NCBI GenBank assembly: GCA_022511465.1 | Contig: JAFLRM010000009.1 | Location: forward strand, 1 to 64,000 | Length of the DNA stretch: 64,000 nt | Origin: Acetatifactor sp. | GTDB taxonomy: Bacteria > Bacillota > Clostridia > Lachnospirales > Lachnospiraceae | Reading direction: 5' to 3' | In this document: piece by piece, positions 52,146-57,245 of the stretch | Layout: each line of letters opens with the position of its first letter | Position numbering within the stretch: the first letter of the stretch is position 1 | Notes under the pieces: model-generated | What the model was told of the DNA's origin: nothing | Database searches by the model: none | What the model saw: the letters and a program-made list of their open reading frames with translations, nothing else | Program-made: the position numbers and the translations under genes

Positions 52146-55064
52146 TTAGAAAAGGTTCTCTATCTTTTTAAAAATTTTCTCCTCCTCTTTGATCTTGCCG
52201 GCATTGCCGACCACACAGAGCTGCTCCTCCTCCATAAAAGCACGGATATGATCAGCCAGTGCACGTATGTCCTCAGGAGAGGCAGACAGGATCTCATCCC
52301 GTTCCTCCTGCAGCATCTCTTCTGTGAGCCCCGTCATGTAGGCACTTAGAGAGTAAAGCCCCTTAGCCGCCGGATTCATGGGCATATCCAGATCGCTGAC
52401 GGCGCCAATGATATACTGGGTCATGACTCGCTCGTCCGCATCGAATGCCGCAACTGCATCCGCGGCTCTCTCATAGACATCGATGGTTCCTTTTAAATTG
52501 GGGTCGCGATAAGACACAAAGTAGCTCTCCCCCGTCTTGCCAAAGCTGCACATACACCCATAAGCGCCGCCCTTCACCCGGACGTTAAACCACATATATT
52601 CATAACCCATGATCACTTTCAATACTTTTAGCGTTCCCTTGTAGGGAAGCCCCTTGTCTCTAAAATTCCCTGCACGACATACATACTGTACCTGACCGGA
52701 GGTCATAAATCCCTCGTTTTTCTTCTCCATAACGGGCATAAAGCGCGCCTTCTCCACAGGACAGTCATAGAGATTTGCTTTCAGTTCCTCGATGGGCGCA
52801 CCTAAATTTGCAACCACCTGCTCTTCGCCCACAAAATCCACCATCAGATTCTCCCTGCGAAAAACCATCTTGGCGAGAGTTTTCAGCTTCTCCACCAGTT
52901 CATCCTTTCGTTCTTCAAAATTAGCCTCCAGATCAGTCACCAGACGATAAAAAGGAATGCCGGAAAACTCCTCGTTGAGCCGTCCCGCCACACTTCCGTA
53001 GGACAGTGCTCTGCCCACGGCCACACTGTGCCCCGCAACCATCATCTGCGCTTGCAGGCGAGACTTACCCTCCGCCAGAATCTCATACAGACGCTTGGTG
53101 TCCGCAAAGTCGCTGGTCAAAATGATCTCCTCCATAAGTTTGATCGCCTTTTCCAAGTTGGGGTACAGCACCTTGGTCTTCAACTCTAATGTCGCCTTGC
53201 ACCGATCCTTATCCTCGAGGGAGGCGTAAGCATTGTTCACCGCAGACATGCCGCCCGTCACCAGATTCATCTCGTTAAAGAGATCACCATAGCTGTAATC
53301 AGCGGTGTTTAACAGCCCCAGACAGCCCTTTAAGATCCCTACATAAGAGAAATGATCCGCCGGGATATCATCCAGTGAAAAGATCAGACGCAGATATCCG
53401 ATACCGTTGGTGGACAGCTTGTGATACAAAAGCCTGGTATCCCCGATCATGCGCTCCTCATTGACAAGACCCGCCGTCTCCTTTTTAAGGTCAGCCCTGG
53501 TAAGCAGCGGAATTTTCCTAAGATCCTCCTCGTCGTCCTCTCTCTCCTGAAATTCTCTGAGCGCCCGGTATTTGTCCATGACCTCTTTAAGCTCTCCGGG
53601 CGTCATAGAAGCCTTTTTCTCCGAAAGCTCCTTTCGGAATGCCTCCACTCTCTCCTCCTCCAGTCCCAGTCGGGGCTTTAAGATCACTACGCTCCGATGG
53701 GGATTATCCAGAAAGTATCTCCTTACAAGCCCCTCAAAGTAGCCGGCCGTCACCTTCTCCCTGAGCGCCGCAAAAGTGGCGTTTGCCTCAATGTGTATGA
53801 AGGGCTTTCCCCCATCGTAAAGCCAACTGTCCAAAGCCTGAAGACCGTACATCAACCCCTTGGGGTAGGATCCGAAATCCGCCTCCCTATAGCGGAACTC
53901 ATAGTAGTTGATCGCCGCGAGAAGGGCTTTCTCATCAAATCCCTTCTCCACAATGCCCTCTAACACCTCCTGTACGGTGTCAAGGAATTCCTTCTCCCTG
54001 TCCACCGTAGTGTCCTTGGCCACAATGCTGAAATAGGGCTGTTTGATGCCATTTTCATAGTGACTGTATATGTCCTTACCAATCCCTCTGTCCACGAGTA
54101 CCTGCTTGACGGGCGCCCCCGGAGCCGTACACAGCGCATAATCCAAAACATCAAAAGCAATATACAATTCCTTGTCCAGACTGTCGCCCACGGAAAAATT
54201 CAGGGACAGAAAGGTATTCTCCTCCTCGTCCTCACCCTCGTTCAAAGGACATTCCTTCACCACCCGCACAGGCTTTTCAAAAACCGACTCTGCATCAATG
54301 ACGGAATCCACCTTCTTTTCCTCAAAGTGGGACAGATAGTGCTCGTCGATAAATGCCATTTTCTCTGCCATATCCATGTTGCCGTAGAGATAAATGTAAC
54401 TGTTGGAAGGATGATAGTAGGTGCTGTGAAACTCCAGAAACTGTTCGTAGCTAAGCTCCGGAATTGCCGCAGGATCGCCGCCCGACTCACAGCCGTAAGT
54501 GGTATGGGGATAAAGGGAATTCATCATCTCACGCTCCAGCACATCATCCGGTGAAGAGAAAGCTCCTTTCATCTCGTTGTAAACCACGCCGTTTACTTTG
54601 AGCTCTTCCTCCGCACTCTCCAACTCATAATGCCAGCCCTCCTGACGAAAGATGGACTCGTTTTGGTAGATGTTAGGATAAAACACGGCATCCAGATATA
54701 CATGCATAAGGTTCTGAAAATCCTTGTCGTTACAGCTGGCTACCGGATAGACCGTCTTGTCCGGGTAGGTCATAGCGTTTAAGAAGGTGTTTAAGGATCC
54801 TTTCACCAGCTCCACAAAGGGGTCTTTCACCGGAAACTCCCTGGAGCCGCACAGCACGGAATGCTCCAAAATGTGCGCCACACCAGTGGAATCCTTAGGC
54901 GGTGTGCGAAAACCAATGTAAAATACCTTGTTCTCGTCGTCGTTGGACAAAAGCGCCACACGGGCCTTTGTCTTTTTATGTCTGCACAGATACGCCATAC
55001 TTTTGATATCTGCGATCTCTCTCTTCTCCAATATCTCGTAGGCTGTTAGTTCTTCCACCTTCAT
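52146..55064 (-). CDS. M16C metallopeptidase (presequence-protease-like)
   Basis: 972-residue insulinase-family zinc peptidase with the inverted motif H64-x-x-E67-H68 in GVAHILEHSVLCGS and a downstream glutamate in NGVVYNEMKGAFSSP. Four homologous domains joined by a helical hinge (the M16C-associated domain, about 470-700) form a closed chamber; such enzymes degrade short unstructured peptides. The C-terminal half includes VRVKGGAYGCMCSF, a typical inactive-half signature (R/Y substrate binding). Probably cytosolic: no signal peptide. ATG at 55064 with AAGGAGAAG. Last gene of the operon with the pseudo-rhomboid and sigma-like genes. Confidence 0.94.
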   Translation of the reverse strand: MKVEELTAYEILEKREIADIKSMAYLCRHKKTKARVALLSNDDENKVFYIGFRTPPKDSTGVAHILEHSVLCGSREFPVKDPFVELVKGSLNTFLNAMTYPDKTVYPVASCNDKDFQNLMHVYLDAVFYPNIYQNESIFRQEGWHYELESAEEELKVNGVVYNEMKGAFSSPDDVLEREMMNSLYPHTTYGCESGGDPAAIPELSYEQFLEFHSTYYHPSNSYIYLYGNMDMAEKMAFIDEHYLSHFEEKKVDSVIDAESVFEKPVRVVKECPLNEGEDEEENTFLSLNFSVGDSLDKELYIAFDVLDYALCTAPGAPVKQVLVDRGIGKDIYSHYENGIKQPYFSIVAKDTTVDREKEFLDTVQEVLEGIVEKGFDEKALLAAINYYEFRYREADFGSYPKGLMYGLQALDSWLYDGGKPFIHIEANATFAALREKVTAGYFEGLVRRYFLDNPHRSVVILKPRLGLEEERVEAFRKELSEKKASMTPGELKEVMDKYRALREFQEREDDEEDLRKIPLLTRADLKKETAGLVNEERMIGDTRLLYHKLSTNGIGYLRLIFSLDDIPADHFSYVGILKGCLGLLNTADYSYGDLFNEMNLVTGGMSAVNNAYASLEDKDRCKATLELKTKVLYPNLEKAIKLMEEIILTSDFADTKRLYEILAEGKSRLQAQMMVAGHSVAVGRALSYGSVAGRLNEEFSGIPFYRLVTDLEANFEERKDELVEKLKTLAKMVFRRENLMVDFVGEEQVVANLGAPIEELKANLYDCPVEKARFMPVMEKKNEGFMTSGQVQYVCRAGNFRDKGLPYKGTLKVLKVIMGYEYMWFNVRVKGGAYGCMCSFGKTGESYFVSYRDPNLKGTIDVYERAADAVAAFDADERVMTQYIIGAVSDLDMPMNPAAKGLYSLSAYMTGLTEEMLQEERDEILSASPEDIRALADHIRAFMEEEQLCVVGNAGKIKEEEKIFKKIENLF

Positions 55065-55541: not shown

Positions 55542-56273
55542 TCACTCAATGTACTCTATCTGAAAACCGCTGATACGCACGGCATCCCGAATGGCCTTCT
55601 CCGTCATTCCTGACTCCTCTGCAAGTTCCTCCACTGTCACCTTGCGATGCAGCTCCTCCGACAGGGCTTTCGCTTTCTTTAATACCTTGTTGACCTTGTC
55701 CAGAGCATGTTTGTCAAGCTTCTCCTGCTCTGCGTTTCCCTGTATATACTCTTCCATGGCATCCATGATAAGCTTCCCTAACATCCCGTCTGCTTCCGCC
55801 GGCGTTTCCATACTCCCCAGCATAGTCACACCTATGGTCAAGGCCATGTTGCCCTCCCCAATCAGATCCTCCAGAAAAACACCTTGTCCAGCATAAATCT
55901 TGGCAATATCCACCACATCCCGCAGATACACCTCGATCAGCTTCTTCTGGGCCTCCGTATCTCCAGCCATGGCCGATATAGTGAAGGCCTCCTTTTCTCC
56001 TCTCGTATATGTGGGCAAAAGCGCCAGCTGATCCAGATAATTTTGCAGGTAATTTTTCTCCTTGTCCGTCAGATAGTCGTCTAAATCCACCGGCTCTCCA
56101 ATTCCAATTTTATGTTTTACCAGATAGTCAAACACCAATTGAAGCTGATCGTTGTCCAGCGAAAGGGGAGCAAAAGCCTCCTGAACCTGCGCCTCGCTGA
56201 CACAGTTTCCCTGTTCCTTCGCCGTCTTTCGCACCTGCTCCAAGGTTTTTGCAAACAGAACTTCCCGATCCAT
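55542..56273 (-). CDS. Sigma-70-like protein lacking -10 and -35 recognition regions
   Basis: 243 residues that follow the layout of a primary sigma factor but stop early. Residues 5-60 resemble region 1.1 (LEQVRKTAKEQGNCVSEAQV; FDYLVKHKIGI). Residues 70-108 resemble region 1.2. Residues 109-150 match regions 2.1-2.2 (KKLIEVYLRDVVDIAKIYAG; FLEDLIGEGNMAL), the RNA polymerase clamp-binding part. Where region 2.3-2.4 should carry the aromatic TWWIRQAI stretch, the sequence is MLGKLIMDAMEEYIQ. Residues 184-236 match region 3 (KVTVEELAEESGMTEKAIRD). Region 4 is absent. It should be able to contact RNA polymerase but not read promoters in the normal way, so a role as competitor, anti-sigma-like factor or specialised regulator is possible; that is inference. 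15 bases after the pseudo-rhomboid gene. Confidence 0.72.
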   Translation of the reverse strand: MDREVLFAKTLEQVRKTAKEQGNCVSEAQVQEAFAPLSLDNDQLQLVFDYLVKHKIGIGEPVDLDDYLTDKEKNYLQNYLDQLALLPTYTRGEKEAFTISAMAGDTEAQKKLIEVYLRDVVDIAKIYAGQGVFLEDLIGEGNMALTIGVTMLGSMETPAEADGMLGKLIMDAMEEYIQGNAEQEKLDKHALDKVNKVLKKAKALSEELHRKVTVEELAEESGMTEKAIRDAVRISGFQIEYIE

Positions 56274-56288
56274 ATCCCTCTCCCACTC

Positions 56289-57158
56289 TTATTTTCTGTG
56301 TTCGTGTGTAAACAGATGATTCTGGCAGTACTCATAGTTTCCGTTACACTTGGAACAGAACCGAAACTCCAGCTCCGGAGAATCCTCGTCCGTCCTGCCG
56401 CAGATAGCACACTTATGCTTTGTGATGACACTGTTTCTTTTGACCTCCTGCCTGAACTGTGTCCTGCGCTTGATCTGCTTGGGGGACATAACTACCCTTT
56501 TGATATTTACCAGATAGAACACTGCAAAGTTGAGCAGCGACGCTCCCACCGCAAACTTAGTGAACACATTTCCTGTGATCATCATATAGATCATCAGGAT
56601 ACCATCCAAAATACCCATCCACTTTACTTTCACGGGAATCACAAACATGAGTAGCACCCTCGCATCCGGATAGGTAGCAGCAAAAGCCAGATAGATGGAC
56701 AAGTTGATATAATAGGTGCTGAACATCAGAGAGCCGCTCATAATGAGAGTCTCAAATGGAAGCACCATCCCGTTCATCACTATAGGAGATGCTCCTCCGT
56801 TTATCATATAACAAAATCCAAGACACAAAAAACTTCCTATGATCGTAAAGAGCATGCCGGAGAACAAGTATACATTATAACGATAGGTTCCCCAGGTGCG
56901 CTCCAATGCGGTGCCGATACTGTAATAGAAAAAGAGCATGATGATGGTGAACAGATCCAGCGAAGACGGAGGCACGATCAGCCACGTCACAAGTCTCCAT
57001 ATCTGCCCGTGCAGGATCTTCCAGGGATCAAGAGTCAGATAGATCAAAAAATTGGAGTTGATCAGTTCTATCACATACCCCACTACATAGCACAAGATCA
57101 GCAGCAGAGTGATATTGGGTATCGCGTATTTTCCAAATTTTTTCTCAAATTTACTCAT
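56289..57158 (-). CDS. Rhomboid-like (probably inactive) membrane protein with zinc ribbon
   Basis: 289-residue membrane protein with about six helices and a rhomboid fold signature: ILHGQIWRLVTWLIVPPS then YYSIGTALERTWGTYRYNVY. The catalytic GxSG serine and the TM6 histidine of active rhomboid proteases are not found (the loop reads INGGASPIVMNG), so it is likely a pseudoprotease, similar in logic to derlins. A cytoplasmic C-terminal zinc ribbon (about 240-289) has CAICGRTDED, then CSKC, YC and a His-rich end HLFTHEHRK. ATG 57158 is chosen for GGAGG upstream; the ORF track starts 20 codons earlier. First gene of a four-gene operon with its own promoter. Confidence 0.78.
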   Translation of the reverse strand: MSKFEKKFGKYAIPNITLLLILCYVVGYVIELINSNFLIYLTLDPWKILHGQIWRLVTWLIVPPSSLDLFTIIMLFFYYSIGTALERTWGTYRYNVYLFSGMLFTIIGSFLCLGFCYMINGGASPIVMNGMVLPFETLIMSGSLMFSTYYINLSIYLAFAATYPDARVLLMFVIPVKVKWMGILDGILMIYMMITGNVFTKFAVGASLLNFAVFYLVNIKRVVMSPKQIKRRTQFRQEVKRNSVITKHKCAICGRTDEDSPELEFRFCSKCNGNYEYCQNHLFTHEHRK

Positions 57159-57216
57159 TGCTTCCTCCATCTCAGAATAAATTAAACTACCAAAAAATTT
57201 CAAACAGTCACTATAC

Positions 57217-57245
57217 ATTGTATCATTCCTCCCCCCATAAGTAAA
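57217..57245 (-). promoter_or_regulatory. Promoter of the pseudo-rhomboid / sigma-like operon
   Basis: Minus-strand TTTACT (57240-57245), 17 bases, TACAAT (57217-57222) with a TGA extended -10. Divergent from the activase promoter about 75 bases away. Confidence 0.65.

Follow-up and report, generated by a model that had tools for sequence, protein, structure and literature searches.

A SigA-derived protein family of Lachnospiraceae that keeps a core-binding motif, lacks promoter-reading regions, and may regulate RNA polymerase without initiating transcription

The 64,000-nucleotide stretch of Acetatifactor DNA analyzed here (the window) encodes a 243-aa sigma-70-like protein that has lost the parts that read promoters but kept the motif that grips RNA polymerase, a combination that suggests a regulator holding the polymerase without starting genes. 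We tentatively propose, at somewhat below an even chance, that this sigma-like protein is a sigma-70-derived, noninitiating transcription regulator that would dock on the β′ clamp via its region 2.2. Sigma factors are defined by promoter reading. The Lachnospiraceae are, to our knowledge, common gut bacteria in which transcription control has been little studied.

Results

The open reading frame lies where a sequence-only reading of this DNA had placed it and is on the minus strand (Table 1). The resemblance of the 243-aa protein to sigma-70 far exceeds chance. NCBIfam models for RpoS and RpoD align to residues 69-235 (E values of 5e-22 to 4e-19), the closest relative in the PDB is SigA from C. 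difficile (E = 3e-17), and Pfam matches Sigma70_r3 above the cut-off (E = 5.8e-7). The sigma profile matches that the sequence-only reading anticipated were therefore obtained. The Pfam matches to region 1.1 (E = 0.0076) and region 2 (E = 0.0078) are weak, and the latter covers only positions 1-34 of the 71 in the profile, which means that the alignment breaks off where regions 2.3-2.4 would start. In the 243-aa protein, Pfam finds neither region 4 nor a receiver domain. Homologues comprise an operon-type set (group A), to which this protein belongs, and a divergent set (group B); region 1.1 is detected by Pfam in 20 of 39 members of the former and 20 of 30 of the latter.

Table 1. Positions in the window of the sigma-like gene, its parts, and neighboring genes
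Feature	Coordinates	Strand	Remarks
Sigma-like protein, 243 aa	55542..56273	minus	Regions 1.1, 1.2, 2.1-2.2, degenerate 2.3-2.4, 3.0-3.1; without 3.2 and without region 4
Region 1.1-like domain, residues 8-60	56094..56252	minus	Pfam Sigma70_r1_1 (weak) and VIA-align to 4llg_F
Region 1.2-like, residues 73-105	55959..56057	minus	NCBIfam RpoS/RpoD alignments start at 69-76; structure alignment at 70-74
Region 2.2 motif DLIGEGN, residues 136-142	55848..55868	minus	Core (β′ clamp) binding motif of sigma
Region 2.3-2.4 equivalent, residues 153-181	55731..55817	minus	Helix retained; −10 melting/reading residues gone
Region 3.1 helix-turn-helix, residues 197-236	55566..55685	minus	Pfam Sigma70_r3; seven residues left to C terminus
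Companion "dn", 139 aa	55111..55530	minus	XDH/CoxM FAD-binding-domain fold without flavin motifs
Rhomboid-like membrane protein	56289..57218	minus	C-terminal Cys/His cluster (zinc-ribbon-like), no GxSG; rhomboid assigned by eye
M16-type peptidase, end of conserved gene row	52146..55064	minus	HILEH motif is sole basis of family name

The AlphaFold2 model of the 243-aa protein, made with 52 homologues, is confident (mean pLDDT of 92), with a loose placement of its domains (pTM of 0.69). Residues 70-181 overlay regions 1.2-2 of solved sigma structures at 2.2-2.5 Å over 96-108 residues, with a Z score of ~14 (5h6x, 7xya, and 6kj6), and residues 70-236 overlay regions 1.2-3.1 of SigA/RpoS with a domain rotation (rmsd of ~11 Å). 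In VIA-align, residues 8-236 align to E. coli sigma70 including region 1.1 (4llg_F, Z of 14.4, rmsd of 16.7 Å over 214 residues), and the predicted region 1.1 is thus supported by structure alignment too. This model of the protein alone gives regions 2 and 3 their sigma-factor placement, and the sigma order of regions 1.1, 1.2, 2.1-2.2, and 3 described in the sequence-only reading is borne out by both sequence and model.

In sigma factors, region 2.2 touches the β′ coiled-coil and regions 2.3-2.4 touch the −10 element (PMC4598750). We aligned 10 SigA proteins with groups A and B, numbering residues as in E. coli via the genome's own SigA (370 aa, offset of 242). The roles assigned to individual residues (clamp contact, −10, extended −10) are those that we take to apply to E. 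coli sigma70. The core-binding residues D403 and N409 are retained in 100% of both groups and E407 in 97% of both; in the numbering of the 243-aa protein, D136 and N142 are invariant throughout. At the other core-contact positions, Q406 is retained in 2% of group A and 94% of group B, and L402 in 0% of either; group A has G at the former and E at the latter. DLIGEGN accordingly stands for DLIQEGN in the sigma-like protein, as had been noticed, and in group B retention of the motif's D, Q, E, and N is 94-100%. In both groups, no other region has as high an information content as region 2.2.

The −10 and extended −10 positions show the opposite pattern. Over the 12 residues scored (Y425, F427, T429, Y430, W433, W434, Q437, T440, R441, R451, H455, and E458), retention is 3% in group A and 7% in group B; counting just the 11 that are invariant in SigA gives 3% and 8%, and W433, W434, and Y430 are kept at 0-3% in group A. 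The TWWIRQAI stretch is indeed substituted in the 243-aa protein, where GKLIMDAM stands instead. Remaining SigA-invariant columns are retained at 31% (A) and 33% (B), and comparison with SigA-invariant columns drawn at random shows enrichment of clamp positions (P = 0.04 in A and 0.0006 in B) and depletion of DNA positions (P = 0.003 in A and 0.002 in B).

Region 4 is missing, as previously claimed, and the C terminus comes right behind region 3.1. The tail that follows region 3.1 has a median length of 12 residues in sigma-like proteins versus 110 in SigA, and the same end point recurs in dozens of genera. Region 4 is not among the Pfam families listed for group A members. Three of the 30 group B members do give Pfam region 4 matches (best 9.3e-6), but their short tails suggest that the region 3.1 helix-turn-helix is the source; these aside, the only homologues carrying region 4 are true SigA proteins. 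No region-4-like sequence was found in 179 loci around homologues. Taken together, sequence and model show a predicted 1.1-1.2-2-3.1 fold with a constrained region 2.2, devoid of the −10 and extended −10 residues, the sigma finger, and region 4.

The sigma-like gene is under strong purifying selection, with dN/dS values of 0.03-0.08 between close pairs. It is present in 55 of 61 Acetatifactor genomes, the six without it being 59-89% complete, and also in Lachnospiraceae bacterium GAM79 (L129), a relative whose genome is complete. Across 250 Lachnospiraceae genomes (about one per genus), tallying by hand gave ~38 with the operon-type gene and ~50 with the divergent gene, together about a third of the genera sampled, nearly always with one copy per genome. 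The two types never occur in the same one of these genomes (hypergeometric P = 9e-5, with genomes treated as independent, that is, not corrected for phylogeny). In ~100 genomes from other families of the order the gene is absent, all full-length matches being SigA-sized ORFs. Four genomes of one Lachnospiraceae genus (G271, G367, G377, and G417) have a second sigma match in an unusually long frame of 513-595 codons, which is presumably SigA.

In a phylogenetic tree, one branch divides all the short proteins from this genome's SigA and five further sigma factors (SH-aLRT of 96). Since this tree was built by a quick method and many of its branches are open, a single origin of the operon-type and divergent proteins is likely, not proven. 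The two sets are connected by L066, which is in the operon position with the rhomboid-like gene upstream, yet clusters with the divergent set. We rejected a phage or mobile origin, since there are only eight matches on viral contigs (30-39%, over part of the core), PHROGs yields just one phage sigma factor, and the gene row is syntenic.

Operon-type homologues lie in a conserved gene row consisting of the rhomboid-like, sigma-like, 139-aa protein, and M16 peptidase genes. The 139-aa gene is present at 80 of 80 named operon-type loci. It occurs in 30 of the 250 family genomes, all of which have a group A gene directly adjoining it, and is missing from those with a group B gene. The rhomboid-like protein, by contrast, is found in 245 of the 250 whether or not a sigma-like gene adjoins, which makes its linkage uninformative; we therefore rejected it as a specific partner and count only the 139-aa protein as a specific companion. 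The absence of GxSG raises the question of whether the rhomboid-like protein is a pseudo-rhomboid, and its sole Pfam match is a subthreshold one to DUF7577.

The 139-aa protein has no Pfam family and no sequence-level match in the PDB. Its model (pLDDT of 92, pTM of 0.84) resembles the FAD-binding domain of the xanthine-dehydrogenase type, with a Foldseek E value of 2e-4 and a VIA-align Z of 11.7 (3.7 Å over 120 residues). This likeness is one of fold only, Pfam and PDB profiles having revealed no sequence-level tie to the XDH FAD domain, and no flavin-binding glycine motifs are seen by eye.

Group B genes have other locations, frequently immediately upstream of purL or next to a gene for a C-terminal processing peptidase, both families being named from sequence by eye. 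Those of L067, L070, L080, L087, and L099 are directly upstream of purL. Shorter versions of ~200 aa, without region 1.1, are found in L086 and L090, also near purL.

Discussion

The literature searched, which lay largely outside subscription journals, yielded no account of a family that derives from SigA and lacks regions 2.4 and 4, in Lachnospiraceae or elsewhere. The sigma-like protein shares with group 1 sigma factors (SigA/RpoD), especially Lachnospiraceae SigA, the order and fold of regions 1.1, 1.2, 2.1-2.2, and 3.0-3.1, the core-binding D/E/N, and ~30% identity over residues 76-236. Unlike SigA, it has no region 3.2 or 4, lacks Y425, F427, Y430, W433, W434, and Q437/T440, and family members mostly lack H455/E458; it is 243 aa long rather than ~370 and falls on a separate branch of the tree. 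RsoA, the region-2 subunit of SigO-RsoA in Bacillus subtilis, is likewise a small protein that contains a part resembling sigma region 2 and lacks region 4, but the sigma-like protein has in addition regions 1.1 and 3.1, lacks the melting residues, and has no region-4 partner nearby. The sigma-like domain of PhyR in Alphaproteobacteria is also a sigma fold that has moved past promoter reading to a role other than initiation. However, PhyR is of ECF type, fused to a receiver, and degenerate in core binding, while the sigma-like protein is of SigA type, has no receiver, and keeps the core motif. The best PADLOC match is MzaA, the sigma-70-like protein of the MZA defense system (residues 29-148, regions 1.1-2.2, E = 1.9e-7); MzaA profiles span 683-726 positions, however, and the sigma-like gene is chromosomal, syntenic, and without recognized defense neighbors. 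We group the sigma-like protein with incomplete sigma-derived proteins such as the PhyR domain and RsoA; only a demonstrated role as a clamp factor would make it categorically new.

As to that role, we infer that region 2.2 would dock on the β′ clamp helices of core RNA polymerase, at the site where sigma and NusG also bind, and that the sigma-like protein would then act either as a reversible brake on, or competitor of, SigA (possibly also NusG), or as a clamp-bound factor on noninitiating polymerase. In Acetatifactor and its relatives, the 139-aa protein, whose gene follows immediately downstream and which is a candidate binding partner, would probably control how much of the sigma-like protein is available. 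The binding site of NusG paralogues overlaps that of sigma (PMC6391919). The site proposed here would overlap that of the clamp-helix binders NusG/RfaH; the sigma-like protein has an unrelated fold and no KOW domain. The core-binding triad retained in the sequence fits a competitor or decoy role. Delivery of polymerase to a special site, which the sequence-only reading had also entertained, is unsupported because the region 3.1 helix-turn-helix is the only DNA-reading part remaining. The sigma finger and region 4 contribute core affinity; as both are missing, a competitor would need abundance or help from a partner. The strongest argument against plain clamp binding comes from group A, in which the G at position 406 and the E at position 402 could weaken it, and the D and N of the motif may be preserved partly for folding.

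A more far-reaching scenario, which we regard as rather unlikely, is that a copy of a primary sigma was turned into a factor devoted to binding the clamp and never starting transcription, acting as a brake or an elongation-phase factor, old in Lachnospiraceae and mostly kept as one copy, with one branch wired to a flavoprotein-fold companion. In that case, sigma itself would have given rise to a class of RNA polymerase factors. A selected and widespread family that retains only the part binding polymerase would show that regulators evolved from sigma, as they did from NusG, and a natural protein makes the function of "sigma region 2 without DNA" testable.

The main rival explanation, which we regard as unlikely, is that the sigma-like protein mimics SigA or a related sigma, as PhyR does, and titrates an anti-sigma or other sigma-binding protein, thereby freeing the true sigma; region 2.2 would then be kept as an anti-sigma recognition surface. 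There is precedent in PhyR, whose sigma-like domain, with degenerate promoter and core regions, titrates NepR (PMC8103513). Some anti-sigmas do bind the region 2.2 surface, such as RseA via its α-4 (PMC4598750), and N45 of sigmaG is contacted by CsfB (PMC4383634). Conservation of region 2.2 alone therefore does not indicate RNA polymerase, and a strictly linked companion protein exists. However, the core-binding region is degenerate in PhyR but the best-kept part here, the sigma-like protein has no receiver domain, and no anti-sigma domain was recognized adjoining it; the companion differs in fold and is absent where group B occurs.

We also consider it unlikely, and less credible than mimicry, that the fold was exapted to bind a nonpolymerase target, for example only the 139-aa protein or an envelope complex, with region 2.2 kept for folding. 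The group A substitutions at Q406 and L402 and the tight linkage to the 139-aa protein, membrane, and peptidase genes would fit this. Group B, however, has neither the 139-aa protein nor the operon, is only ~30% identical to the 243-aa protein, and still conserves the D, Q, E, and N, which the fold alone hardly explains.

A split sigma, in which the sigma-like protein would contribute sigma2 and a second protein, carrying region 4, would read the −35 element, is quite improbable. SigO-RsoA of B. subtilis is a genuine split sigma (PMC8103513), and a few proteins of this genome match Sigma70_r4 without a region 2 match (C53, C2, and C43:1628). The loss of the residues that read the −10 element and of the aromatics that melt it nevertheless makes the usual promoter opening impossible, and no region-4 protein is encoded in the operon or suggested by anything in the 179 loci. 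A split sigma formed with a neighbor was rejected, the XDH-FAD-like fold of the companion not being region 4 and the others being a rhomboid-like protein and an M16 peptidase. Finally, although the C-terminal third of SigA is missing, a decaying gene or functionless truncated SigA copy is barely credible and was rejected, given the gene's presence in nearly all genus members, synteny at every named locus, the low dN/dS, the shared end point, and the lack of any region-4 remnant, and the alternative of a truncated pseudogene raised in the sequence-only reading gives way to a conserved sigma-derived gene.

Several divergent members differ in their C termini. That of L080 (L080:5405-6475, minus strand) has an acidic extension of ~100 residues past region 3.1, which is not region 4, and those of L067, L072, L076, and L084 are rich in His/Cys (e.g., HEHCGCGHEH and HHHHSHHHES) and could bind metal.
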